Shown one piece after another: positions 17,286 through 34,161 of a DNA stretch of 64,000 bases. The notes under the pieces were generated by a model. It saw only the letters and a list, made by a program, of their open reading frames with translations. It was not told the DNA's origin and did not search any database. A program made the translations under genes and the position numbers. Position 1 is the first letter of the stretch; each line of letters starts with the position of its first letter. Source of the DNA: Oscillospiraceae bacterium (GTDB taxonomy: Bacteria > Bacillota > Clostridia > Oscillospirales > CAG-272); assembly GCA_015063625.1 (NCBI GenBank), contig SVTT01000001.1, positions 1 through 64,000 of the forward strand, in the 5' to 3' direction.

Positions 17286-17331
17286 TTTGCATGGAGGAAA
17301 CTCAGTAGAGAAAAGAAGAAAGGAGCAGAAG

Positions 17332-20300
17332 ATGGAGCAGACGAGAAGGAGCATGTGGTTCAAGCTGTTGTCGGTCGTGATGACGGTTGCCATCCTGGCG
17401 GTGTCGTTGCCGCTGACGGTATTTGGCATGGAGAGCCTTGATGCGGCAGAAGCCGAGGCGCCGACGGGAGAGGCACCCGAGGTGTGGGAGGTTGTGGAGC
17501 TGCGCGGGGAGAACGTGAAGCATTTTCGCCTCTCGGACGGCTCGTACGTAGCGGCGCGGTACAGCGGCGCGGTGCATGAGCTTGACGGGGAGGGCAAATG
17601 GCAGGACATCGATAACACCCTGACAGAAACGCTGACGGGCTACAAGACCGAGAATGCACGCGTGAAATTTGCTAAGAATTCAAACGCCTCCAAGCTGTTC
17701 AGCCTCAAGGATGGGGAGTATGGCGTGTCCTTCGGTCTTGCGGATGCGGCAAGGTCAAGGGGCGTGGTGAAAAACGGCAGTAACGAGAGTGGGCTCACGG
17801 GCTACGAGGCGCTCTCCACGCTTTCGCACCTGGTGTCAAGCGTCAGGTATGCTGACGTGTATGAAAGCACGGACCTGGAATACGTGGTGAGGGGCAGGAG
17901 CGTAAAGGAGAACATCATCCTAAAATCGGGCGGGAGTGCATCCTATTCTTATACCTTCGAGATGAAGGTGAAGGGTCTGACCCCGACGCTAGGCGAGGAT
18001 GGCTCTGTCACGCTTGCCGACAGCGACACGGGCAAGGGCGTGTATCGGATCCCTGCACCCTATATGTACGATGCGGCGGGCAAGCGCTCCGAGGCGGTTT
18101 CCTATACGCTGACGGGCAGCGGCAACAAATACAAGCTAACGGTGACGGCAGATGCGGCATGGATCAATGCCGCCGACCGCGCGTTTCCCGTCACGATCGA
18201 CCCGACGGTCTCGCGGTTGGACTTCTCGCTCGATTTCGTACACATTGAATCTTCGCGGGGCAACTGCTTTTCGGAGGATGCGGAGCTGAAGATCGGGTAC
18301 TCGGGAGATACCATGATACTCGGCAAGATCACGGACATGAGCTTTCTTCCCGATGAAAGCGTGATCGTTTCTGCAAAGCTGCAGCTTTCGGGAAGGTTTT
18401 ACTATGCCTGTGAGAGCATGACGGTGCAGGTAGGCAATATCATACCGACAGAATACAGCAATAGCACGGGCGATCTGTGGAATTTCAGAAGCGTTAAGCA
18501 CAGTGATTACCGATATAGCTTCGATATCGATCGGGAGAATGTAATCGACTATGCCTATCTTGCTTATGGAGATCATGGCGTAGCCTCAATGACACTTGAT
18601 ATCACCGAGCTGGTTATGGGATGGGCAGAGGGCTCGATCGATAACCAGGGCTTTGCCGTTTATCCCGTTGCGCAAAGCGGAGAGGAGCCGGCTTATCTGG
18701 GGATCCAGAAGACCGAGGAATCTCCCATGTTGGAGATCACCTACCGCGATGCGAAGGGGATCGAGGAATATTACGATTATTTTACCGCGTCGGCAGGGAG
18801 TGCGGGCACGGGCTACGTGAATGCCTATACGGGACAGCTGCAATTTTTGCATGATCTCCTCAGCACCACCGATTCGTTGCTGCCCTACACGCTGGGTCTT
18901 GCCTATAACGGACATCTGTCGGGGCGCTTCTATACCTCGGAAAATGCCGAAACCGCGCTGATCTCGGCGTTCGCGGGCAAGGGCATGAAGCTTTACTGTG
19001 ATGAAACCGTCACGGTAAAGCTCATCAAGGATAGCAGCTTGTTTATCTGGTCGGATGCCGATGGCACCGAGCATCATTTCCCGTATCTCGGATATTTTAG
19101 CCCCTCTGACGAGCAAAGCCTTACGGTGGAGGATGAAGATGATCTCCACCTCACCCTGAAGGTGGAAAAGCCCGAGGACGGTGCGCTTTTCTTTGAGATC
19201 TCGGACGAGGTCGGCAATAAAAAGCACTTTGATACCAACGGATATCTGGTGTATATCGAGGATGCGGTGGGCAATCGCCGCGTATTCACGCGAGATGCCA
19301 ACCACCGTGTCACCGCCATCTCGCTGGTCCCCAAGGGTCACAGTGAGATCAGCCAGCTGACGCTGACCTACAGTGGCGGCTTGCTTTCCGGCGTCACCAA
19401 TATTGTGGCGGGGATCTCGGCGGCGCTCTCCTACAATACCGATGGGTATCTGACGGCGATCACCTATACCTATCCCCCCGACGGGAGTGCAACGGTCACC
19501 TTTGCCTACGACGGTGCGGGCCGCCTGACCCTTGCCAAGGACGAAAAGGGCTGCCGTGCGCTCGGTTACAGCTATGATGACTCGGGCAGAGTGATCGAGG
19601 TCACCGAATATGCCTTTGCGGATGCGAGCAGCGAAATGACGGCAGGTCAGCGCGCGGGCATCTCCTATGCGACGCGGCAGACCGTGTACCGCACGGCGGG
19701 CAAGGACGATGTCTTTGGCAACGGTGATGATGTTTATGCCGTATACGGCTTCAATATGTCAGGCAAGCTTGTCAGTGCCTATACCACTGACGGAGCAACC
19801 GTTTACGGTGCGGGCAATTATGAATATGACGGAGAAAGCAACCGCATCTCCTCTGTGATGTCCACGGGGGGCATGACGGTCAACCATCTTGCCAACCCCG
19901 GCTTTGATAGCGTGGTGGGTGTAATGCCTCTGCTGTGGGAAACGAGTGGAACTGTCTATTCCCGTTTTTCGGTTACCGATTTCAGCGAAAACCGTGTCGC
20001 GGCATTGTCCGCATCGGGAAATGGCAGCTCCACTGCTGCCATCAAGCAAAAATTCCATCTTGCCGAGGGCACCTATACCTTCTCGGCTCGCCTTGATATG
20101 CACGCTATGTATACCGCACAGGGCGGCGTGCGCCTTGTGATCTATCGGGAGGATGGCAGTGCGATCTCGGAGGGCTACGTGAGAAACCGTATGGTCAACC
20201 AAGGCGGACAGGAAACCTACAGCTGGGAAACGGTGCACGTCACCTTCGCGGTAACGGGCACTGCCTGTGAGGCGCAGGGCTGGTATGCGGCGATCGAGCT

Positions 20301-23300
20301 GTATCATCCCGAGGCAGGCTCCTCCTCGGCGGTCTACGTGGATTCCGCGATGCTCGAAACGGGCAGCGTGGTCAGTGCTTACAGCAGCGTTCACGGCAGC
20401 TTTGACAGCGGCGCTTCAGATTGGACAGGCGGCACGGTCGTGTCGGGTGAATCGCTTGACGGCACGCGCGCCCTGTGCGTGACGGGCAACGTCCTTCAGG
20501 CGCGGAGAGCCTCGATCACCGTGCACCTGGAGCACGGATTGAGAATAGAGTCGGACTCGGATACGGGCAGAACGCAAAAGCCTGCCACACTGGTGCTATC
20601 GGGATGGGCAAAGGCAAATGCGGTGCCAAACGGCGCACGCGCGGGTCATGAGGGAGGCTCCTTGTTTGGCTTGCGTGCCGTGGTGCATTATTATGACACC
20701 AACGCCACCACCACGCATGAGGCGACCTTCACAACGAGCGTGGAGGACTGGCAGTTCATCTCACTGGATATCTGCCCGATGTACGATACCGTAAAGCACG
20801 GCTTTTATGGCATCACCTCCATCGATATCTACTGCGTGTACGACTACAACGTGGGCAACGCCTATTTCGATAACATCTCGCTGATCCGCGATTCGGATTG
20901 CGTGGTGAACTATTTCTATAATGCCGACGGTAAGATCGTGGGCACCTCGACCTCGGATAGCAACAGCGAAAGCTATACCTATGCCGAGAACGGTGTGGAC
21001 GTCGAAAGGGTGACCGATGAGCTTGGCAACGAGTATGACTACGGCTATGACGGCCAGCACCGCGTGGAGACCTCGGTCAACGCAAGCGGCAATGTGGTGT
21101 ATGATCCGGACGTAGAGTACAGTGGGATCTATTCGATCGACTACACCAATTACACCGTTTACAGTGTTTATGACGACGAGGGCAACTACGGCAATCTGAT
21201 GAAGACCTATCAGATCGGAAAGTATAACAGAACCATGCTGGAAAGCAGCGTCACCTACAATTACAGTGATGCGGCATTTTCCGCCGTCGCCACCGAGACC
21301 GACGCGGCAGGCGGTGTGACCCGTTATTTCTATCGGAATAACGGACTGCTGCACGGCATGTGCGATCCGAACGGCAACGGGCTTGTGTATAGCTATAACG
21401 CCTTCGGTCAGCTCACGCGCGCCGTAGCCGCGACCTATGACGCTGCCACCAATACCTTGGTCGTACCCGAGCAGGGGGAGGAGCAGCATGACGTTACGTA
21501 TAGCTATGACGGCAAGGGTCAGCTGACGGGCATTGACAGTGATGGGGCACTCTATACCTTCCTTTATGACGTATTCGGCAATGCCACCGAGGTCAGGCTG
21601 GGCAGTGACGTGCTTGCCACCTACGAGTATGCTGCCAATAACGGCAAGCTCAAAAGGATGAGCTATGGCAACGGTACGTACGTGCTGTATGAGTATGATG
21701 CCGTTGACAGGGTAGTGGGTATCTGTTATAATGGAAGAGAAACAGCCGTTTACAGCTATTTCTATAATGCCAACGGTCAGGTTGCCGAGCATACCGATCT
21801 TGCTACGGGTATTTGTTATGAATACAATTACGATGCAAGTGGCAGAATGCTGCAAGAAACGGCAAAAAAGAGCAACGCATCCGATCTGCTTTATTTCAGA
21901 GAGCTGGAATATGATATTTACGGCAGAATCGTATCGCACTACGTGTATTTCCTTGATACCCCTGCCGCCCCGCTGTCGCTCACTGAGTATGCTTATAACG
22001 CACAGGGAAACATTGGGGAGGTCAATCTTGCCAATATTTCAAAGCTGCTCACCTACTCCTATGACGAGCATGGGCGCGTTTCAAGTAAATATTTGACAAA
22101 TTGGACGGATCATGAAAATCGCACCGTGTATTTGGGGCAGAGCTTCACCTATGAGCGTGGCAGAACCGTGCAGTCACCGGTTGATAACGGAAATGCGTAT
22201 ACCAATACGGGGCATTTAAAGATGCATACGATCGAGGATGCGGACGGACCAATCTTTATTTCCCAAGACTATGATGCGGCGGGGAATATTACCGAGATTC
22301 GTACGGCAACGCTTGGTGTGTTGCATGCAAAAGCTCATTTCCACTATGACAAATTGGGTCAGCTGGTGCGCGAGGATCAATGGTTTGCAGACACCTCCAC
22401 CGCCTCCTTCACCATGGTCTATACCTATGACAAGGCAGGCAATATGACCTCAAAGAAGCAGTATGCCTATACTGCTTCGGATACCGCCGTCAGCGGTGCA
22501 CCTGTATCGACCACCACGTTCACCTACGTGGGGAATATGCTGACCGCGATCAACGGCTCGCCGCTTCGGTATGATGCGATCGGCAATTTGTGCGAATGTA
22601 ACGGAGTCACCTATAAGTGGAATGGCAGACGGTTTACGGAATACGATGCTTTGGGACTCTCTGTCTATTACACGTATAACGCCGACGGTGTACGGACTGT
22701 GAAAACGGTGAATAACGTGCGGCATGAGTACGTGTTAGACGGAATCAAGGTCATGCGCGAGGCGATCTATGATCCCTCGAGGTATCTTGCCACCGATCTG
22801 CGCTTCAGCTATGATGCCGAGGGCAACCCCGTGGGTATGCGGTGCTTCCAAATGAATGCGGCAGGCACGGTGATCTCGGACAATGCCTATTTCTATGCCA
22901 CCAATGCCCAGGGCGACGTCATTGCTATTTACAGTAACACAGGCACCAAGCTTTATACTTATACCTACGATGCCTGGGGCAACCTCATCGAGGGGAGAGA
23001 AGTCGCCGCAGGCGGCGCTGCCGTCGGCGCACTCAATCCCCTCCGTTACCGCGGTTACTACTACGATGCCGAAACAGGACTTTACTATCTCAATTCCCGT
23101 TACTATAACCCCCAGTGGGGTAGATTCCTCAATGCGGATGATGCTACCGTCATCACTGCAACCCCCGGTGCACTTACCGATAAGAATCTGTATATCTACT
23201 GCGACAATAACCCCGTCATGCGTGCAGATGACGGAGGGCATTTCTGGGATACTGTATTTGACGTTGTTTCGCTTTGCTTTAGTGTGGTAGACGTCATCCA

Positions 23301-23751
23301 AAATCCAGATGATCCGTGGGCATGGGTAGGGCTTGCTGCCGATGTTGCATCACTGGTTATTCCGTGCGTATCTGGCGGTAGTTCGGTTGTTAAAGCTGCG
23401 ACGAAGGCGGATGATGCGGTAGATGCGGTTAAGGCGATTGATAGGGTTGACGATGCAGTAGATACTGTAAAAACGGGATGGCATGTTGGAGACGATATTA
23501 CAAATTTGACTAAAGCGGGTAATAATCCCAGTTGGTCAACAGTACGCCAGCGCTACTGGAAGAATGAGGCTCTTAATCACCCTGAGCGCTATTCTAGCGA
23601 TTTGGATCGACTTAAAAAGGGGTTGGCACCTATTGGAAAAGATGGATTTTCAATGGAACTTCACCATCCCATGGGAAGGACCGGAAAGAATTTTTTTAAC
23701 TTTGAACCATTAACGCAAACAGCGCACAGGTTGGTTCATTGGGGAGGTTGA
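17332..23751 (+). CDS. Secreted RHS/YD-repeat polymorphic toxin, DNRLRE-like region, HNH/EndoVII-like C-terminal nuclease tip
   Basis: AAAGGAG RBS and ATG at 17332; signal peptide WFKLLSVVMTVAILAVSLPLTVFG; dozens of YDxxGr-type repeats; RHS core YDAETGLYYLNSRYYNPQWGRFLNAD; tip YWKNEALNHPERY...MELHHPMGRTGKNFFNFEPLTQTAHRLVHW. Confidence 0.92.
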   Translation: MEQTRRSMWFKLLSVVMTVAILAVSLPLTVFGMESLDAAEAEAPTGEAPEVWEVVELRGENVKHFRLSDGSYVAARYSGAVHELDGEGKWQDIDNTLTETLTGYKTENARVKFAKNSNASKLFSLKDGEYGVSFGLADAARSRGVVKNGSNESGLTGYEALSTLSHLVSSVRYADVYESTDLEYVVRGRSVKENIILKSGGSASYSYTFEMKVKGLTPTLGEDGSVTLADSDTGKGVYRIPAPYMYDAAGKRSEAVSYTLTGSGNKYKLTVTADAAWINAADRAFPVTIDPTVSRLDFSLDFVHIESSRGNCFSEDAELKIGYSGDTMILGKITDMSFLPDESVIVSAKLQLSGRFYYACESMTVQVGNIIPTEYSNSTGDLWNFRSVKHSDYRYSFDIDRENVIDYAYLAYGDHGVASMTLDITELVMGWAEGSIDNQGFAVYPVAQSGEEPAYLGIQKTEESPMLEITYRDAKGIEEYYDYFTASAGSAGTGYVNAYTGQLQFLHDLLSTTDSLLPYTLGLAYNGHLSGRFYTSENAETALISAFAGKGMKLYCDETVTVKLIKDSSLFIWSDADGTEHHFPYLGYFSPSDEQSLTVEDEDDLHLTLKVEKPEDGALFFEISDEVGNKKHFDTNGYLVYIEDAVGNRRVFTRDANHRVTAISLVPKGHSEISQLTLTYSGGLLSGVTNIVAGISAALSYNTDGYLTAITYTYPPDGSATVTFAYDGAGRLTLAKDEKGCRALGYSYDDSGRVIEVTEYAFADASSEMTAGQRAGISYATRQTVYRTAGKDDVFGNGDDVYAVYGFNMSGKLVSAYTTDGATVYGAGNYEYDGESNRISSVMSTGGMTVNHLANPGFDSVVGVMPLLWETSGTVYSRFSVTDFSENRVAALSASGNGSSTAAIKQKFHLAEGTYTFSARLDMHAMYTAQGGVRLVIYREDGSAISEGYVRNRMVNQGGQETYSWETVHVTFAVTGTACEAQGWYAAIELYHPEAGSSSAVYVDSAMLETGSVVSAYSSVHGSFDSGASDWTGGTVVSGESLDGTRALCVTGNVLQARRASITVHLEHGLRIESDSDTGRTQKPATLVLSGWAKANAVPNGARAGHEGGSLFGLRAVVHYYDTNATTTHEATFTTSVEDWQFISLDICPMYDTVKHGFYGITSIDIYCVYDYNVGNAYFDNISLIRDSDCVVNYFYNADGKIVGTSTSDSNSESYTYAENGVDVERVTDELGNEYDYGYDGQHRVETSVNASGNVVYDPDVEYSGIYSIDYTNYTVYSVYDDEGNYGNLMKTYQIGKYNRTMLESSVTYNYSDAAFSAVATETDAAGGVTRYFYRNNGLLHGMCDPNGNGLVYSYNAFGQLTRAVAATYDAATNTLVVPEQGEEQHDVTYSYDGKGQLTGIDSDGALYTFLYDVFGNATEVRLGSDVLATYEYAANNGKLKRMSYGNGTYVLYEYDAVDRVVGICYNGRETAVYSYFYNANGQVAEHTDLATGICYEYNYDASGRMLQETAKKSNASDLLYFRELEYDIYGRIVSHYVYFLDTPAAPLSLTEYAYNAQGNIGEVNLANISKLLTYSYDEHGRVSSKYLTNWTDHENRTVYLGQSFTYERGRTVQSPVDNGNAYTNTGHLKMHTIEDADGPIFISQDYDAAGNITEIRTATLGVLHAKAHFHYDKLGQLVREDQWFADTSTASFTMVYTYDKAGNMTSKKQYAYTASDTAVSGAPVSTTTFTYVGNMLTAINGSPLRYDAIGNLCECNGVTYKWNGRRFTEYDALGLSVYYTYNADGVRTVKTVNNVRHEYVLDGIKVMREAIYDPSRYLATDLRFSYDAEGNPVGMRCFQMNAAGTVISDNAYFYATNAQGDVIAIYSNTGTKLYTYTYDAWGNLIEGREVAAGGAAVGALNPLRYRGYYYDAETGLYYLNSRYYNPQWGRFLNADDATVITATPGALTDKNLYIYCDNNPVMRADDGGHFWDTVFDVVSLCFSVVDVIQNPDDPWAWVGLAADVASLVIPCVSGGSSVVKAATKADDAVDAVKAIDRVDDAVDTVKTGWHVGDDITNLTKAGNNPSWSTVRQRYWKNEALNHPERYSSDLDRLKKGLAPIGKDGFSMELHHPMGRTGKNFFNFEPLTQTAHRLVHWGG

Positions 23752-24402: not shown

Positions 24403-25436
24403 CGCGCTTCAGCTATGATGCCGAGGGCAACCCCGTGGGTATGCGGTGCTTCCAAATGAATGCGGCAGGCACGGTGATCTCGGACAATGCCTATTTCTAT
24501 GCCACCAACGCCCAGGGCGACGTCATTGCTATTTACAGTAACACAGGCACCAAGCTTTATACTTATACCTACGATGCCTGGGGCAACCTCATTGAGGGTA
24601 GAGAAGTCGCCGCAGGCGGCGCTGCCGTCGGCGCACTCAATCCCCTCCGTTACCGCGGTTACTACTACGATGCCGAAACAGGGCTTTACTACCTCAATTC
24701 CCGTTACTATAATCCCCAGTGGGGCAGATTCCTCAATGCGGATGGGTATGTTTCTACAGGGCAAGGTGTATTGGGGAATAATATGTTTGCCTACTGTGGT
24801 AACAATCCTGTTAACCGAAAAGACCCTGCAGGTCAGTTTTGGATTACTGCTCTAATAGTTACAGCCGTTGTTGCGGTTTGTACCGTAACTCTTTCGGGTT
24901 GTTCAGCGAAACCTGATCCCGCACCACTACCATATAAAACCGCAGATGAAGCGGCTATGGCTTTTGCAAATTCTACGTATAGTTCAAGCAGTTATATTCG
25001 TCATGAATATGGAACTGTGATATATTCAAGAACTACTAATGGGACTACAACTTATGATTTCGCAACGCCTGTTGCAGGTAGTCCTCATAGCGTGGCGTAT
25101 GGGAATGTTAAAATTCCATCGGGAACAACAAAAGTAGCAACTGCTCATACACATCCAAATAGCAATAGTTTCTCAGGACTAACACCGGGAGCTACAAGCG
25201 GAGACATTCCTAATGCTGTTAGACGAGGACTTGACAGCTATGTTATTGGTCCCAACTTAAATTTGCAAAAATATAGTATATCCTCTGGCACTGTTTCTGT
25301 TGTCGGTGTTGCTTCTCCTGTCTCTCTAACAAGTCAGCAAAAAACCGCACTTATTTCACAATTTCAAATATCTTGGGATAACCATTTAGGGACATGTGCA
25401 TTTGGCTGTGAGCATATGTCTTGGCCAGCGCCTTGA
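24403..25436 (+). CDS. Orphan RHS core + toxin tip 1 (DUF4329/JAB-like)
   Basis: Core near-identical to 22802-23140; tip TADEAAMAFA...EYGTVIYS...HSV...VATAHTHPNSN; no signal peptide. ORF-track start 24435 (GTG). Confidence 0.8.
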
Positions 25437-25449
25437 AGGAGGGAAAACA

Positions 25450-25875
25450 ATGAGAAAAATATTCCCCTTGATACTTTTATTATTTTTGCTTTTGGGATGT
25501 AGCAATCCAAGGGAGGATGATATTGTGGAGGATATTGATATTACCGAAATAGAGTGGTGCGGTATAGAGTGGAATCAAATTCAGTTTCCTATTGATTTGA
25601 GTGAAGATGTTTTGAAAGGAATAATACCAATAGACACAAACCAAATTGCGGTAGATATTGGGAAAAACATAATAGCAGAACTTCATAGGGAGGGGAAACT
25701 ATCCGAATATACTTTGATTTCTATTACTCATTCGACAGAAGATAATGTGTGGTGCTTCGAATATTCAATAGATCAACGAAGCGTGGATGTTGATAACTTA
25801 ATTGATTGTGGATGCTTGTATGTTGCAATTGATGGAAACAAGGGGGCATTAATTAAAGCCTGGCTTGAAGAGTAA
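25450..25875 (+). CDS. Candidate immunity lipoprotein for orphan 1
   Basis: MRKIFPLILLLFLLLGCSN lipobox; GGAGG upstream of ATG 25450; directly downstream of tip 1. Confidence 0.7.
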   Translation: MRKIFPLILLLFLLLGCSNPREDDIVEDIDITEIEWCGIEWNQIQFPIDLSEDVLKGIIPIDTNQIAVDIGKNIIAELHREGKLSEYTLISITHSTEDNVWCFEYSIDQRSVDVDNLIDCGCLYVAIDGNKGALIKAWLEE

Positions 25876-25887
25876 AAGAGTCATACT

Positions 25888-26004
25888 AGCAAGCATCGCC
25901 TTTTGGGGACAAAAGGCAGCTTGTTGGGATAGTCCCAAGCCCTTAAAGGTTTCAGGAATATTCCTGACAAGTCTGTGTTTGGGTGACCAAACGCGATGCT
26001 TGCT
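25888..26004 (+). other. 117-nt structured inter-cassette element, copy 1
   Basis: Outer stem AGCAAGCATCGC/GCGATGCTTGCT (12 bp) enclosing four hairpins: CTTTTG/CAAAAG, TTGGGA/TCCCAA, TCAGG/CCTGA, GTTTGG/CCAAAC. Confidence 0.75.
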
Positions 26005-26021
26005 GATAGAGGTCAAACCCC

Positions 26022-26981
26022 GTGGGTATGCGGTGCTTCCAAATGAATGCGGCAGGCACGGTGATCTCGGACAATGCCTATTTCTATGCCACCAATGCCC
26101 AGGGCGACGTCATTGCTATTTACAGTAACACAGGCACCAAGCTTTATACTTATACCTACGATGCCTGGGGGAACCTCATCGAGGGCAGAGAAGTCGCCGC
26201 AGGCGGCGCTGCCATTGGCGCACTCAACCCTCTCCGCTACCGCGGTTATTACTTCGATGCCGAAACAGGGCTTTACTACCTCAATTCCCGTTACTATAAC
26301 CCCCAGTGGGGCAGATTCCTCAATGCGGATGATGCTACCGTCATCACTGCAACCCCCGGTGCACTTACCGATAAGAATCTGTATATCTACTGCGACAATA
26401 ACCCCGTCATGCGTGCAGATGAAGATGGGGAGTTTTGGAATGTCATTGTTGGTGCAGTTGTTGGTGCTGTTGCGGGTGGTTTAATTGCAGCTTTGAATGG
26501 TGAAGACACAGCTGGCATTGTTATAGGAGCCTTGTCTGGAGCTGCTTCTGGTGCTGTTGCAGCTACCGGATTGGGATGGGTGGCACAAGCAGGAATTAGC
26601 GCAGCGATAAGTGCAACTGCTGATATGGCGAATCAAACAATTGATATTGTCCAGTCTGGTGGCACTATTTCAGATTACGATGTATTTCAAACTGTGACAG
26701 AGGCAGGATTGGGATTTGCAACTTCTGCTGCGGGTTCGGCACTAGGTAAGTTCGCAGGGAAAAAGGTGACAAAAACCGCGGTAAAGGCTGACCAACTATA
26801 TGATCGGTATTTAGGGAAGACTTTTACAGCAGGTTTGCGGAAAGAGGCCGGAAAATCCTCAACGGCGTTGCTGCGACAGGCAAATAATTTTTTGACGCAA
26901 TCCAACTTTTTCCAAAATGTTTCCAATGGAGTATCTTCTGTTATAGGCTCAGGTATTTCCTTTTGGAATATAGCGAGGTAG
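26022..26981 (+). CDS. Orphan RHS core + toxin tip 2 (Gly/Ala-rich hydrophobic pretoxin, unassigned tip)
   Basis: Core shared with the full-length gene through FLNADDATVITATPGALTDKNLYIYCDNNPVMRAD, then unique sequence. Confidence 0.75.
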   Translation: MGMRCFQMNAAGTVISDNAYFYATNAQGDVIAIYSNTGTKLYTYTYDAWGNLIEGREVAAGGAAIGALNPLRYRGYYFDAETGLYYLNSRYYNPQWGRFLNADDATVITATPGALTDKNLYIYCDNNPVMRADEDGEFWNVIVGAVVGAVAGGLIAALNGEDTAGIVIGALSGAASGAVAATGLGWVAQAGISAAISATADMANQTIDIVQSGGTISDYDVFQTVTEAGLGFATSAAGSALGKFAGKKVTKTAVKADQLYDRYLGKTFTAGLRKEAGKSSTALLRQANNFLTQSNFFQNVSNGVSSVIGSGISFWNIAR

Positions 26982-27496: not shown

Positions 27497-27623
27497 GAAG
27501 AAAAGGGACAAAGGATAAGTTAAAAGTTCTTTTGTCCCCTCGGCACAATTATGCCTAAGCAGGTAATCTTCCGATCTCAGCAAATGGTACGACGACACAT
27601 GTTTCTTTGCCCGACGCCGAAGG

Positions 27624-27696
27624 TGTCATTCTGAGCGAGCGAAGCGACTCGAACTGATTTGCCCGAGATCCGTTCGACTTCGCTCAGGATGATGTC
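27624..27696. repeat. Imperfect inverted repeat (TGTCATTCTGAGCGA-type)
   Basis: TGTCATTCTGAGCGAGCGAAGCGACTCGAAC ... GTTCGACTTCGCTCAGGATGATGTC. Confidence 0.75.
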
Positions 27697-27699
27697 GTA

Positions 27700-28713
27700 C
27701 AAATCAGCGCTGATGGTACGGTCGTGTCCGACCAGTCCTATTTCTATGCCACCAATGTCCAGGGCGACGTCATTGCTATTTACAGTAACACAGGCACCAA
27801 GCTTTATACTTATACCTACGATGCCTGGGGGAACCTCATCGAGGGCAGAGAGGTCGCCGCAGGCGGCGCTGCCGTCGGCGCACTCAATCCTCTCCGCTAC
27901 CGCGGCTACTACTACGATGCCGAAACTCAGCTTTATTGGGTATCCTCACGTTACTATTCGCCTGAATTATGTAGATTCATTCAACCAGCAGATGTATCAA
28001 GTTTAAATCCATCAAGTATTAATGGACTTAACTTATATAGTTACGCTAATAACGATCCTATTAATATTCAATATAATACAGCACTAGCTAGTGCTGGAAT
28101 TATTGGAGGAGGAATGATAAGTTCTATTGGTTCATCCGTTGGCGGAGGAGCAGTGTCTGGTAGTGGAGGTGGAGGCTTATCCTCTCCATCAAGAAATTTA
28201 CCTCCTGTACCCGGATGGTTAGGAACATTATCAACAGGACTAGACCATGGATTTACAATGATTAATCCTATTAGAAGTGCAATTGCTTGTTTGCAATTTA
28301 CAGATCTATGGGATTTAATGAGATTAGATGGTGTAACAGAATTACCAGGAATTTTATCTAAAGTTGCAACTGGAATTGGTTGGGGACTTTCTATTGCCGG
28401 TGGTGTAGTTGCAGGATATGAGAAATATGCATCAAGTGCAAATATAAGTAGTTCTATTGCTGGTGGATTAATTAATGCTGGCATTAGTATTGGTGGTATG
28501 TACGCTTCAACAGCTATTGCTACGGCTGCTATGGGAGCTTTAGCTGCCTCTTCATTAGCTATACCAGGTGGCGCAATTATTGCAGGAGGAGCAATTATAG
28601 CTGTCGCTACAGGTATTTCAATCAACCACTTGTTTACAAAATTAGAAATTGGCGGAAATACGATAGAAGGGCATTTAAATGATTTTGTGGATCGGTTAAT
28701 TTTTTGGGATTAG
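27700..28713 (+). CDS. Orphan RHS core + toxin tip 3 (AT-rich, Gly-rich hydrophobic tip)
   Basis: Core SDQSYFYATNVQGDVIAIY...LRYRGYYYDAET then LYWVSSRYYSPELCRFIQPADVSSLNPSSINGLNLYSYANNDPI; ORF-track start 27724. Confidence 0.75.
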   Translation, partial: QISADGTVVSDQSYFYATNVQGDVIAIYSNTGTKLYTYTYDAWGNLIEGREVAAGGAAVGALNPLRYRGYYYDAETQLYWVSSRYYSPELCRFIQPADVSSLNPSSINGLNLYSYANNDPINIQYNTALASAGIIGGGMISSIGSSVGGGAVSGSGGGGLSSPSRNLPPVPGWLGTLSTGLDHGFTMINPIRSAIACLQFTDLWDLMRLDGVTELPGILSKVATGIGWGLSIAGGVVAGYEKYASSANISSSIAGGLINAGISIGGMYASTAIATAAMGALAASSLAIPGGAIIAGGAIIAVATGISINHLFTKLEIGGNTIEGHLNDFVDRLIFWD

Positions 28714-29329: not shown

Positions 29330-30208
29330 GTGGGTATGCGGTGCTTCCAAATCAGCGCTGATGGTACGGTCGTGTCCGACCAGTCCTATTTCTATGCCAC
29401 CAACGCCCAGGGCGACGTCATTGCTATTTACGACGAAAACGGTGTTAAAATTTACACCTATGCCTACGATGCCTGGGGGAACCTGATCGAGGGGAGAGAA
29501 GTCGCCGCAGGCGGCGCTGCCGCAGCGGCAGTAAACCCCCTCCGCTACCGCGGCTATTACTTCGATGCGGAAACTGGTCTTTACTACCTCAATTCCCGCT
29601 ACTATAATCCCCAGTGGGGTAGATTCCTCAATGCGGACACGTATATCAGTACGGGGACAGGATTGATTGGATACAATATGTATGCGTATTGTAACAATAA
29701 TCCGGTTATGTACATCGATCCAACCGGTGACATTTCCAAAGAGCAAGTAGGTGCAATTGTGGGGATGTTTTTTGGTCCTCTCCCGCAAATTTTAGTGTAT
29801 GTGTTTATGCCGGATGAAGAAGAGCACTATGCTAGAAATGAGAACAATACAATTGCTATACCTAAAACAAGGGATGAGGTGCCAGGAGATTGGAAAGCAT
29901 CAAATGGCGAAGGCAATCGTGAAGTTGGGCCGAAAGCCAATGCACATCAATTTACATCTCCCGATCATTCAAATGTAAAATATACTTCTCCTGACGGAAC
30001 AATGGAGGCAATCTATGATAAGAATGGCGACCTTGTAACGGATCCGCGTGATGTGGGCACTTACAATTTCTATCCATCGGAAAAGATATTTGGCTTTTTT
30101 GGTCATGGGGTGATGGACATATTGCCTTGGATTATATGGGGGAATTCTGATACGGACACCACAACGCCGTTACAACGTGTGAAAGGATTGGTAGGCATTT
30201 ATGGTTAA
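29330..30208 (+). CDS. Orphan RHS core + toxin tip 4
   Basis: MGMRCFQISADGTVVSDQSYFYATN core; tip YDKNGDLVTDPRDVGTYNFYPSEK...HGVMDILPWIIWGNSDTDTTT. Confidence 0.75.
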   Translation: MGMRCFQISADGTVVSDQSYFYATNAQGDVIAIYDENGVKIYTYAYDAWGNLIEGREVAAGGAAAAAVNPLRYRGYYFDAETGLYYLNSRYYNPQWGRFLNADTYISTGTGLIGYNMYAYCNNNPVMYIDPTGDISKEQVGAIVGMFFGPLPQILVYVFMPDEEEHYARNENNTIAIPKTRDEVPGDWKASNGEGNREVGPKANAHQFTSPDHSNVKYTSPDGTMEAIYDKNGDLVTDPRDVGTYNFYPSEKIFGFFGHGVMDILPWIIWGNSDTDTTTPLQRVKGLVGIYG

Positions 30209-31043
30209 AAAACGCTTAATCAAGTACGGCGTTCTAGTTGTTGCCGTAGTAATTGCTTTTGTCGGTATTTTTGCCATCAGTCGAACGGCTTTTTCCAGAA
30301 AAATAGTCAAGCTGATTCGTGAAAGGGATTATGTTCACTTGGAGAAGATGTGTGAAGCACACCCAGGTTCCATCGATCACGTGCCATGGATCCATCAATT
30401 TTTTGGAGCACTGGCGGAGAAGCCCGAAATACTGACGCCTTTGCAAGAAGCTTGCCTTCGAAACGATATGATGGCGGTTGAAATTTTGGTGGAGCATGGT
30501 GCCGATCCGAATGTTAACAGTCATTTTGCCTCTGAATATCCACTGTCTTATGCTGTTTCAAAGGGGAATCTTCCCATGACCAAGCTGCTTGTCGATCATG
30601 GTGCAGATATAGCACTTTGCCGTGAAAAGCTGTGCTACAATCTGGCAGTGTACGCGCGTAATGAGCATGCGAATATGTGCATCGAGGAGTATATAGAAAT
30701 GGTTGAGTTATTGGAACAGAACGGCATGGATTTTTTGGAAGGAGATTCGTCTTCCTCGTGCAATATTTTTTTGAATACCGCATTATTAAATGATCTTGAA
30801 GCGGCAAGCTATTGGCTGGACTGCAAAAACGTATTGGTCGATCAGACCGATTCAAAGGGTAGAAACGCCCTTCATTTGGCTGTCCTTACGGGACATATAC
30901 GTCCGAAACTGCAATTTGTTCAATTTTTGGTGGATCGTGGAATTGATCCCTGTGCAATGGATTATGACGGAAAAACCGCTTACGATCATGCTGTGGAACG
31001 GGGATGTACCGAAATCGCGGAATATCTAAAGGAGAGAATGTAG
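30201..31043 (+). CDS. Membrane-anchored ankyrin-repeat protein, candidate immunity for orphan 4
   Basis: Overlaps tip 4 stop by 8 nt; N-terminal TM YGVLVVAVVIAFVGIFAI; TPLQEACLRNDMMAVEILVEHGADPNVN, GRNALHLAVLTG ankyrin motifs. Confidence 0.75.
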   Translation: MVKKRLIKYGVLVVAVVIAFVGIFAISRTAFSRKIVKLIRERDYVHLEKMCEAHPGSIDHVPWIHQFFGALAEKPEILTPLQEACLRNDMMAVEILVEHGADPNVNSHFASEYPLSYAVSKGNLPMTKLLVDHGADIALCREKLCYNLAVYARNEHANMCIEEYIEMVELLEQNGMDFLEGDSSSSCNIFLNTALLNDLEAASYWLDCKNVLVDQTDSKGRNALHLAVLTGHIRPKLQFVQFLVDRGIDPCAMDYDGKTAYDHAVERGCTEIAEYLKERM

Positions 31044-31083: not shown

Positions 31084-31141
31084 GAGGCAGACGATATGCA
31101 AGTAAAGATCAATCAGATCTTACTGTATGTTTGCCTGCCTC
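31084..31141 (+). other. Imperfect long hairpin before orphan 5
   Basis: GAGGCAGACGATATGCAAGTAAAGATC-AATCA-GATCTTACTGTATGTTTGCCTGCCTC. Confidence 0.55.
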
Positions 31142-32181
31142 CTGTATTTGTAATTTTCCATGATGCCTGGGGCAACCCCGTGGGTATGCGGTGCTTCCAA
31201 ATGAATGCGGCAGGCACGGTGATCTCGGACAATGCATATTTCTATGCCACCAACGCCCAGGGCGACGTCATTGCTATTTACGACGAAAACGGTGTTAAAA
31301 TTTACACCTATGCCTACGATGCCTGGGGGAACCTCATCGAGGGCAGAGAAGTCGCCGCAGGCGGCGCTGCCGTCGGCGCACTCAATCCCCTCCGTTACCG
31401 CGGTTACTACTACGATGCCGAAACAGGGCTCTACTATGTATCCAGCCGTTATTATGACCCTGAGATCTGCCGGTGGATAAATGCGGATAATCAGCTCTCA
31501 GCAGGTAGTGATTTAACAGGAATGAATTTGTTTGCTTACTGTGGCAACAATCCTGTTAATCGAATTGATCCTACTGGAGAAGCGTGGTGGCATTGGGCGC
31601 TTGGTGCAGCAGTTGTGGCCGTAGCCGCAGTTGCCACAGTTGTTACTTGCGGTGGTTTTGCTGCCGCAGCAACAGCAGTGTGTATGGTCGGTAGTGGCGT
31701 TGCAGCTGCTACGACCGCATCTACAGTTGCCGCCGGAGCATTTATAGGGTCGGCAACTGTTTATGGCATGGCAGTTTTGTTTGCTGCTTCTACTTCAAGT
31801 TCTGCGCAAGAGTTCAACGACCAAGGAAATTGGGGTACGGTTGCGGCAACAGCTTTTGGTGGGCTAACGGGTGGATACGCTGGATATACAATGTCCAAAG
31901 CACAAACGCCGACAAGCACTCCAACCAACACTTCACGTGGTTCAACTGGAAGAACCGAACCAGCCAATTTGAGGGAACAATTAGCCATGGAACAAGTAAA
32001 GTCCAATCCATCGGCAGGCACACAGTTAACAAGAATCACGTTGAATGACCCACGCTGGCCTTCATCTGAGGGGTGGGTAAAAATGCAACAGATAGTACCT
32101 ACATCTCAGGGAGATATTAACATTCATTATGTTTATAACCAAACCTTAAAAATATTTGATGATTTTAAGTTTAAGTCGTAG
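31096..32181 (+). CDS. Orphan RHS core + toxin tip 5
   Basis: HDAWGNPVGMRCFQMNAAG hybrid junction; core; tip RTEPANLREQLAMEQVKSNPSAGTQL...LNDPRWPSSEGWVKMQQIV...INIHYVYNQTLKIFDDFKFKS. Confidence 0.75.
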   Translation: MQVKINQILLYVCLPPVFVIFHDAWGNPVGMRCFQMNAAGTVISDNAYFYATNAQGDVIAIYDENGVKIYTYAYDAWGNLIEGREVAAGGAAVGALNPLRYRGYYYDAETGLYYVSSRYYDPEICRWINADNQLSAGSDLTGMNLFAYCGNNPVNRIDPTGEAWWHWALGAAVVAVAAVATVVTCGGFAAAATAVCMVGSGVAAATTASTVAAGAFIGSATVYGMAVLFAASTSSSAQEFNDQGNWGTVAATAFGGLTGGYAGYTMSKAQTPTSTPTNTSRGSTGRTEPANLREQLAMEQVKSNPSAGTQLTRITLNDPRWPSSEGWVKMQQIVPTSQGDINIHYVYNQTLKIFDDFKFKS

Positions 32182-32201: not shown

Positions 32202-32627
32202 GTGAAGGACAATATTATATTTAGCAAGATATGGCAAGATGATGATGTAATAGAATTAAAAGTTACGTGTTCCTCTTCTGTGGCAACTATCACATCAAAA
32301 ATATATGTTTCGGATCCTTTAATTGATGAATTGATTTGCCAAATTAAGCAATTCCTAGATGGAAATAACGAAGAAGGTTTATGGGCGAATGAAGATAAAG
32401 GAAATGATTCAACAGCGTGTGTATCATTACGATTTTTTAGAAAAGATAAGTTAGGACATATCGTTATAGAAGTGTTTGCGGAAATAGACGACGGAGGGGA
32501 CTACAGCGAACACAATTGTTGCTTTTATGTTAGTACGGAATATGGTTTATTAATGAGTTTTTGTGAAAGTTTAGTTCAATTAAAGAAAAATCCAGTAGGA
32601 TATGAAATTCAATTAAACTGTTCTTAA
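32202..32627 (+). CDS. Candidate immunity protein for orphan 5
   Basis: GTG start preceded by AAGGAG, 20 nt after tip 5; small acidic soluble protein. Confidence 0.6.
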   Translation: MKDNIIFSKIWQDDDVIELKVTCSSSVATITSKIYVSDPLIDELICQIKQFLDGNNEEGLWANEDKGNDSTACVSLRFFRKDKLGHIVIEVFAEIDDGGDYSEHNCCFYVSTEYGLLMSFCESLVQLKKNPVGYEIQLNCS

Positions 32628-32639
32628 ATGACATATGCC

Positions 32640-32756
32640 AGCAAGCATCACCTTTTGGGGACAAAAGGCAGCTTGTTGGGATACTCCCAAGCCCTTAAAG
32701 GTTTCGGGAATATTCTTGATAAGACTGTGTTTGGGTGACCAAACGCGATGCTTGCT
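32640..32756 (+). other. 117-nt structured inter-cassette element, copy 2
   Basis: Same length as copy 1 with 6 differences; outer stem and all four hairpins retained (one terminal A-C mismatch). Confidence 0.75.
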
Positions 32757-32773
32757 GATAGAGATCAAACCCC

Positions 32774-33700
32774 GTGGGTATGCGGTGCTTCCAAATGAAT
32801 GCGGCAGGCACGGTAATCTCGGACAATGCATATTTCTATGCCACCAATGTCCAGGGCGACGTCATTGCTATTTACGACGAAAACGGTGTTAAAATTTACA
32901 CCTATGCCTACGATGCCTGGGGGAACCTCATCGAGGGCAGAGAAGTCGCCGCAGGCGGCGCTGCCGCAGCGGCAGTAAACCCCCTCCGCTACCGCGGCTA
33001 CTACTACGATGCCGAAACAGGACTTTACTATCTCAATTCCCGTTACTATAACCCCCAGTGGGGTAGATTCCTCAATGCGGATTCACAATTAAGTATTTCT
33101 TTAGGTGTTTTAGGCTGTAACATGTATGCCTATTGCCTAAACAATCCAATAAACAAAGTGGATCGCAGAGGTAATAAGCCCGGTGATTTGTTTGATACGG
33201 CGGATGAAGCTGCAATAGATTTTGCAGAATATATCAATGAAAAGTCCATAAATGTAGATCGTGAATATGGTTCTTTTATATATTCAAAAACCGTCTGGGA
33301 AACTAAAATGGCAGTATGTTATTATCCTCGCGTGCCTGGTAATAACTTTTTGTCACGCTTTTGGAATGATAACATTGCCGGCAGAATTTCTAAGATGACG
33401 AGAATATGGGTTAGAGTTACCAAATACTCGTATGTTGAGCCCGTAAAAGGAACTGCACATAGTGTGTCTATTCCCGCTAATCAATCTCGTACGAGAATAA
33501 AGGTTGCCGAAATCCACACTCATGGTGCTTATAGTCCTGGCTATCATAATGATGTTTTTTCTTCTGCAGATATAAATAATTATGTCAATTACTTGGTAAC
33601 ACCGTTAGGAACTGTAAGAAAATACGATCCTGCCGATAAAAGTGACATAATAATTTACTATGATGCACCTTTCGATCCAAAGCATCCAGGGAGGAAATAG
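32774..33700 (+). CDS. Orphan RHS core + toxin tip 6 (second DUF4329/JAB-like tip)
   Basis: Core, then TADEAAIDFAEYINEK...REYGSFIYSK...AHSVSIPANQS...KVAEIHTHGAYS. Confidence 0.75.
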   Translation: MGMRCFQMNAAGTVISDNAYFYATNVQGDVIAIYDENGVKIYTYAYDAWGNLIEGREVAAGGAAAAAVNPLRYRGYYYDAETGLYYLNSRYYNPQWGRFLNADSQLSISLGVLGCNMYAYCLNNPINKVDRRGNKPGDLFDTADEAAIDFAEYINEKSINVDREYGSFIYSKTVWETKMAVCYYPRVPGNNFLSRFWNDNIAGRISKMTRIWVRVTKYSYVEPVKGTAHSVSIPANQSRTRIKVAEIHTHGAYSPGYHNDVFSSADINNYVNYLVTPLGTVRKYDPADKSDIIIYYDAPFDPKHPGRK

Positions 33701-33706
33701 ACAATA

Positions 33707-34111
33707 ATGAAAAAAAGAATATATTTGCTTGTGTTTATCTTAATAATATTGGGAGGAGTCCTAATGATAGTCATTCAAAAAGATTTTCATAATATAAAAT
33801 ATCAAAATAATCCTTCTAATGTTAAAAGTTTTGAATTCAGTGACTATCAATATCATATTGAAAATTTTTCTTCGGATGAAGATGTTGGTCCCATTATTGA
33901 TGCGGAAGAAGCTGTTGCAAAAGCGGAAGAAGTTTGGAAAAAAGTGTATGGAGAGAGCGTAGAGGAGGAAAAACCATATCAAGTATTCTATGATGAAAAA
34001 AATGAAATTTGGTTAGTACATGGAACACTAGAGCCTAATATGAAGGGCGGTGTGGCATACATATTGATAGAAAGTACCGGCAAAGTGTTAGCCGTATGGC
34101 ACGAAAAATAG
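33707..34111 (+). CDS. Candidate immunity protein for orphan 6 (NTF2-fold immunity-like, N-terminal TM)
   Basis: MKKRIYLLVFILIILGGVLMIVI anchor; IIDAEEAVAKAEEVWKKVYGE...KPYQVFYDEKNEIWLVHGTLEPNMKGGVAYILIESTGKVLAVW. Confidence 0.7.
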   Translation: MKKRIYLLVFILIILGGVLMIVIQKDFHNIKYQNNPSNVKSFEFSDYQYHIENFSSDEDVGPIIDAEEAVAKAEEVWKKVYGESVEEEKPYQVFYDEKNEIWLVHGTLEPNMKGGVAYILIESTGKVLAVWHEK

Positions 34112-34123
34112 ATCATATAAGCA

Positions 34124-34153
34124 GCATCGTCTTTTTGTGTCAAAAGGCGATGC
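34124..34153 (+). other. Collapsed derivative of the structured inter-cassette element (terminator-like hairpin)
   Basis: GCATCGTCTTTTTG-TGT-CAAAAGGCGATGC; right arm plus TTGC is the exact reverse complement of 25889-25905. Confidence 0.6.
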
Positions 34154-34161
34154 TTGCAGTG

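Follow-up and report, generated by a model that had tools for sequence, protein, structure and literature searches.

The RHS array and its intergenic palindromes

The window analysed here, a stretch of 64,000 nucleotides from an Oscillospiraceae bacterium, carries an RHS array with eight RHS core 3' repeats and seven junctions behind immunity genes. At its head lies a full-length RHS/WapA-like toxin gene (17287-23751, + strand), an arrangement shared with previously described RHS and polymorphic-toxin orphan cassettes, in which toxin tips and immunity genes are likewise arrayed behind a full-length gene, and which are thought to recombine into that gene (PMC3482391). An orphan RHS core with a DUF4329 tip (24435-25436, +; PF05593, PF14220) is followed by the immunity-like ORF of orphan cassette 1 (25396-25875, +; its real start is probably 25450). 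The first copy of the element considered here (25884-26008, assigned to no strand) occupies the 3' end of that cassette, and the next orphan RHS core (26022-26981, +; PF05593) lies beyond it. The layout is repeated further along the array, where an immunity-like ORF (32202-32627, +) is succeeded by a second copy (32636-32760, no strand) and directly afterwards by another orphan core with a DUF4329 tip (32774-33700, +; PF05593, PF14220). A third immunity-like ORF (33707-34111, +) precedes a short hairpin (34120-34157, no strand) that consists of an arm, a single hairpin and an arm.

The original prediction placed the element ‘at cassette boundaries’, which holds for three of the seven junctions (two full copies and the short hairpin) and fails for the other four, where no copy is present. 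The array is varied in other respects as well. At 27610-27700, another junction carries an inverted repeat with CATTCTGAGCGAGCGAAGCGACTCGAAC.. in place of the dimer described below; one orphan cassette has an immunity gene (30201-31043) whose product contains ankyrin repeats; and the orphan core at 31096-32181 begins in an ORF with additional N-terminal residues (MQVKINQILLYVCLPPVFVIFHDAWGNPVG), at a different type of junction that lacks the element.

The core spans of the two full copies (25888-26004 and 32640-32756) are each 117 nt long and differ by exactly six substitutions, at 25898, 25932, 25954, 25964, 25968 and 25972. Copy 2, measured to its GCAAGC, starts 13 nt past the stop of the preceding ORF, and the alignment of the copies continues into the RHS core. 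The arms of copy 1, AGCAAGCATCGC (25888-25899) and GCGATGCTTGCT (25993-26004), are perfectly complementary over 12 bp. All of these properties (the closing stem, the second copy with its length and substitutions, and the homology running into the core) had been described correctly beforehand, as had the first, second and fourth of the four enclosed hairpins; the third (TCAGGA/TCCTGA) had been placed one base off, and lies at 25951-25956/25962-25967.

The fold is far more stable than that of shuffled sequences (z = -6.8 with RNA and -7.4 with DNA parameters, with none of 200 shuffles equally good). Under DNA parameters, all four hairpins appear in the minimum free energy structure, and a further stem (CTTGT/ACAAG) closes the middle two, which under RNA parameters fuse into one long arm. 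So stable an RNA fold, situated close behind stop codons, invites the explanation that the element is a structured RNA, or a 3'-end stabiliser or terminator of the immunity transcript. Against this, no U-tract accompanies the hairpins, in agreement with the earlier statement that the element has no poly-T tail and is not a simple (intrinsic) terminator; the element is present in either orientation; and no Rfam family reaches its gathering score in a search with it.

Association with toxin-immunity cassettes

One check proposed with the original prediction concerned genome-wide dispersal, and the element proved to be confined, within its own genome, to this RHS array (a remnant besides the two full copies). 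Homologues from other genera within the family are 94-98% identical over the length of the element, and the matches stop at its edges. A scan of GTDB genome contigs with a degenerate form of the element half returned 87 contigs, mainly from Clostridia and many with ruminant-gut names, of which 26 contain dimers (full or partial), 48 contain single units (including some chance matches in coding sequence) and 13 contain a different dispersed repeat. Phage records gave no match to the element and a scan of viral contigs only one, which is chance-like; among plasmid records, a dimer query produced one 29-nt match and a monomer query one Subdoligranulum record.

The dimers are strongly associated with RHS genes. 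An RHS core was found by tblastn within 4 kb in 19 of the 26 dimer contigs from the scan, as opposed to 3 of the 61 contigs in the other classes (p about 1e-10), and several of the remaining seven either end nearby or carry an immunity gene that has RHS-linked homologues (L093, L145, L154). Their position relative to the preceding gene is equally regular: 35 of 37 examined elements begin 3-52 nt past the stop codon of a small ORF, mostly of 94-240 aa, whereas the corresponding rate is 6.6% for random positions and 5 of 20 for relaxase-linked single units. When the 35 preceding proteins were compared all against all by blastp, only eight related pairs were found, leaving about 29 unrelated families. 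Because the dimers lie near RHS cores and start just behind small-ORF stops, these comparisons indicate that, across many genera, the element marks where RHS toxin-immunity cassettes end on their 3' side; the link to RHS toxin cassettes first suggested for this one locus is both real and general.

In eight pairs of homologous immunity genes, each drawn from different genomes, the genes are accompanied by the element or its remnant. The gene at 33707-34111, followed in the window by the short hairpin, has a homologue (62% identity; L035/L154) with a full dimer after it, and the same relationship connects a remnant in G040 with a full element in L157. Since such homologous genes bear either form, sequence comparison indicates that the element moves together with cassettes and is eroded by deletions inside its palindrome; the hairpin at 34120-34157 is probably an internal-deletion remnant of this kind.

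A short, palindromic, intergenic sequence without coding capacity, present in both orientations relative to the preceding gene, might also be a MITE or a repeat of the REP/BIME kind that a transposase (such as one of the Y1/TnpA-REP type) has inserted by chance behind genes. REP sequences, which are likewise short, intergenic pairs of inverted hairpins, have been proposed in one account to be moved by TnpA-REP (PMC8266576). The element departs from them in being linked to a single class of locus, rather than scattered through its own genome or away from RHS loci elsewhere. The Y1 transposase (PF01797) has no match in the element's own genome and is absent from 6 of 12 element-bearing genomes, and the relatives of the element's constituent unit are transfer origins (below). 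The explanation is improbable. No target-site duplications are evident in the inspected flanks of a subset of elements.

The original prediction also offered a folded-DNA recombination or mobility site functionally like an attC, and in one respect this came close. As in integrons, each cassette has a single foldable site, placed where a gene ends, and the element is an imperfect palindrome able to fold as a single strand. The R boxes of attC sites are GTTRRRY/RYYYAAC. The arms of the element (GCAAGCATCGC) are unlike these, R' and R'' boxes are absent, orientation is free, the relatives of the unit are transfer origins, and none of the 12 element genomes contains an integron integrase (IntI) above the cut-off. 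A site of an integron-type tyrosine recombinase is thus very improbable; the more general idea of a mobility site fared better.

An inverted pair of probable MOBP-type oriT units

What the original prediction missed, while seeing the fold and the copies correctly, was the dimeric make-up of the element and the oriT nature of its unit. It is built from two inverted copies of a unit of about 58 nt, in which ACCAGCAAGCATCGC is followed by ‘hairpin A’, a stretch of about 9 nt containing CTTGT, ‘hairpin B’ and CCCTTAA. In the left unit (25885-25946, +), with the arm ACTAGCAAGCATCGC, hairpins A (CTTTTG/CAAAAG) and B (TTGGGA/TCCCAA) stand on either side of CTTGT, and CCCTTAA comes last; in the right unit, which is inverted (25943-26007, -), the hairpins that follow the arm are GTTTGG/CCAAAC (A) and TCAGGA/TCCTGA (B), again on either side of CTTGT, and CCTTTAA comes last. 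The single hairpin between the arms at 34120-34157 is hairpin A.

Monomeric copies of this unit occur in many Clostridia upstream of NikA-like/MobC genes (PF21983, PF05713), in most cases at a distance of 7-140 nt, and the next gene downstream is usually a MOBP-type relaxase (PF03432). Annotated mobC genes are preceded by the same layout in Cohnella (where the relaxase gene is next) and Pusillibacter plasmids, as is the gene for a NikA homologue in Subdoligranulum. Monomers and dimers differ sharply in this regard, with nikA or relaxase genes near 18 of the 48 monomers and none of the 26 dimers. Hairpin A of the left unit is identical to that of a unit upstream of nikA in Holdemania (L132), and the right unit nearly matches units upstream of nikA-relaxase genes at three other loci (L086, L115, L138); the two halves therefore appear, by sequence, to be two distinct oriT variants, joined so that the candidate nic site of each points outward.

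Taken from the strand opposite to that of the unit sequence given above, the arm is GCGATGCTTGCTGGT; read outward, it (GATGCTTG|C) fits the published nic consensus of Tn1549 (RYGCTTG|C), which is tabulated together with that of pRJ6 (TGCTTG|CCA) in PMC7755788 (Table A3). In the left unit, the candidate nic site lies at 25889-25896 on the bottom strand (ATGCTTG|C), with a predicted cut between 25890 and 25889; in the right unit, it lies at 25996-26003 on the top strand (ATGCTTG|C), with a predicted cut between 26002 and 26003. The octamer RYGCTTGC alone occurs 32 times in the window, and only its context is telling.

That context includes two conserved inverted repeats next to nic. Among 78 distinct units, hairpin A reaches at least 5 bp in 60 (shuffle mean 2.7), as does hairpin B, also in 60 (shuffle mean 6.8), and the numbers of distinct stem entries (25 for hairpin A and 32 for hairpin B) are far above those of shuffles. 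The sequences of both hairpins vary, and pairing is kept across relatives by many compensatory changes, which is the outcome anticipated by the covariation check proposed earlier, with the proviso that the signal is weak in the dimers alone (whose copies are too alike) and strong only once the monomeric units are added. An RNA covariance model (R1) recovered full dimers; being palindromic, it also scored the opposite strand, together with low-scoring unrelated repeats.

Because the monomers adjoin nikA/mobC-relaxase genes and the arm fits the Tn1549 nic consensus, the unit can be identified with good confidence as a MOBP-type oriT, and by every feature testable here it groups with that class: the nic core is present in both arms, the conserved inverted repeats lie beside it, and relaxosome and relaxase genes adjoin the monomers, though not the dimers themselves. 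This kinship also bears on the structured-RNA explanation. The homologous monomers of mobilisation regions stand upstream of genes, not behind them, and because the relatives of the unit (as judged by their nikA and relaxase neighbours) are DNA transfer origins and the dimers occur in both orientations, an RNA function seems improbable.

Related sequences were encountered in other settings. At thirteen loci, a different palindromic repeat (TGACAAAAGTGCAAGCATCGCATTTGTC..GGGCTAAGCCCAAACCCTTAA) has the arm and CCCTTAA words in common with the oriT unit, and neither RHS nor relaxase genes are nearby. Several tandem units consisting of AGCAAGCA(T/C)(C/T)GC and a hairpin are found behind lexA-like genes (L029-L031, L033, L034 at 1200-1750); at L209, from G180, units of this type precede a NikA gene. 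Such tandem units possibly represent multiple nic-like sites within one region.

A proposed transfer origin served in trans

The element has in common with the MOBP/NikA-MobC origins (the Tn1549 group, with pRJ6-like nic) the nic consensus, the adjacent inverted repeats, and the words and hairpins of the unit. It differs in that two units are joined tail to tail into one palindrome that lies behind RHS immunity genes, with no relaxase or nikA gene beside it. A precedent is provided by the oriT mimics of Staphylococcus plasmids, hairpin-rich and in several copies, without a relaxase of their own, which are mobilised in trans by pWBG749 and which are known to recombine with each other (PMC4652767). 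Those mimics have a different oriT core, reside on plasmids instead of in chromosomal toxin cassettes, and are not inverted dimers. No description of a double oriT, or any other mobility site, on polymorphic-toxin cassettes was found in the open-licence literature searched. The kind of unit is known; what appears to be new is that two units are joined tail to tail and that the dimer holds a fixed position on such cassettes.

Sequence comparison establishes the dimer structure, the homology of its unit to sites directly upstream of nikA/mobC-relaxase genes, the fit to the Tn1549 nic consensus and the strict placement, in many genera, behind immunity genes and beside RHS cores. The most likely role of this dimer of MOBP/NikA-MobC origins, with its outward, Tn1549-like nic sites at the cassette 3' end, would be that of a transfer or recombination site used by a relaxase acting in trans, a reading to which we assign a probability slightly better than even (roughly 0.55). 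A relaxase from a visiting IME or ICE would nick at either arm, since each strand of the dimer has a single candidate nic site. With a start at the left unit, the adjoining cassette would be led out single-stranded, in the order immunity gene, toxin tip and RHS core; transfer could end at the next dimer upstream, which has a like-oriented unit; and recombination, either between oriTs or through the homology of the repeated RHS cores, could then fix the cassette in a recipient or elsewhere in the array. A more elaborate version, in which successive double origins bound each cassette, so that the trans-acting relaxase starts at one dimer, stops at the next and hands over a single circle, which RHS core homology or oriT-oriT recombination then inserts in the recipient, is as a whole rather unlikely.

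Several observations count against a relaxase acting in trans. The Tn1549 relaxase has been reported to be cis-acting (PMC6856555). Four of the seven array junctions carry no element, and cassettes can therefore be gained or kept without it. Neither a MOBP relaxase nor NikA was found in the element's own genome (a 93.7% complete assembly), and among 12 element-bearing genomes a relaxase is present in three and NikA in five; metagenome-assembled genomes often lose mobile elements.

The absence of both proteins from its own genome makes a serious rival of the idea that the element is a fossil or hitchhiker: the cassettes would once have been IME cargo, with an oriT and a recombinase end behind the immunity gene, and the dimer would now be an idle leftover that spreads with them. 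Behind the dimer at four loci (L091, L119, L124, L154) come the conserved leader of a serine-recombinase operon and a small ORF (MRKVKLIVHE..), and at two of these (L124 and L154) also the start of an apparently truncated large serine recombinase gene, an arrangement suggesting that the dimer may be the leftover end of cassette-carrying IMEs; half elements and deletion remnants of the dimer also exist. Set against this are the 94-98% identity of full dimers between genera, the occurrence of the element behind about 29 unrelated immunity families, and the pattern of substitution in 17 dimers, where changes are rarer in stems and arms (15 of 1189 cells) than in loops and spacers (37 of 764), and variable columns likewise (14 of 70 versus 18 of 45, p = 0.03). 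This slower change in the stems hints, weakly, at selection. On balance the fossil is possible, on the unlikely side. The leader itself (TTACGGTTACAAAATTGCCTTTAAGTGAGGAAACAGTTGGAGGG..CCTC) is found behind the dimer at the same four loci and at three others (L036, L042, L043), and only in some of them do the small ORF and the recombinase start follow.

If the preferred reading of an origin served in trans is correct, borrowed conjugation enzymes may carry toxin-immunity cassettes from one gut bacterium to another. The movement of RHS and polymorphic-toxin tips with their immunity genes between strains is usually attributed to recombination of an unspecified kind; with an origin of transfer held in place behind the immunity genes, these pairs of weapon and antidote would have a concrete, conjugative route between gut bacteria. 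The element also serves as a DNA tag by which such cassettes can be located, having marked about 26 dimer contigs in the GTDB scan and about 29 unrelated immunity families.
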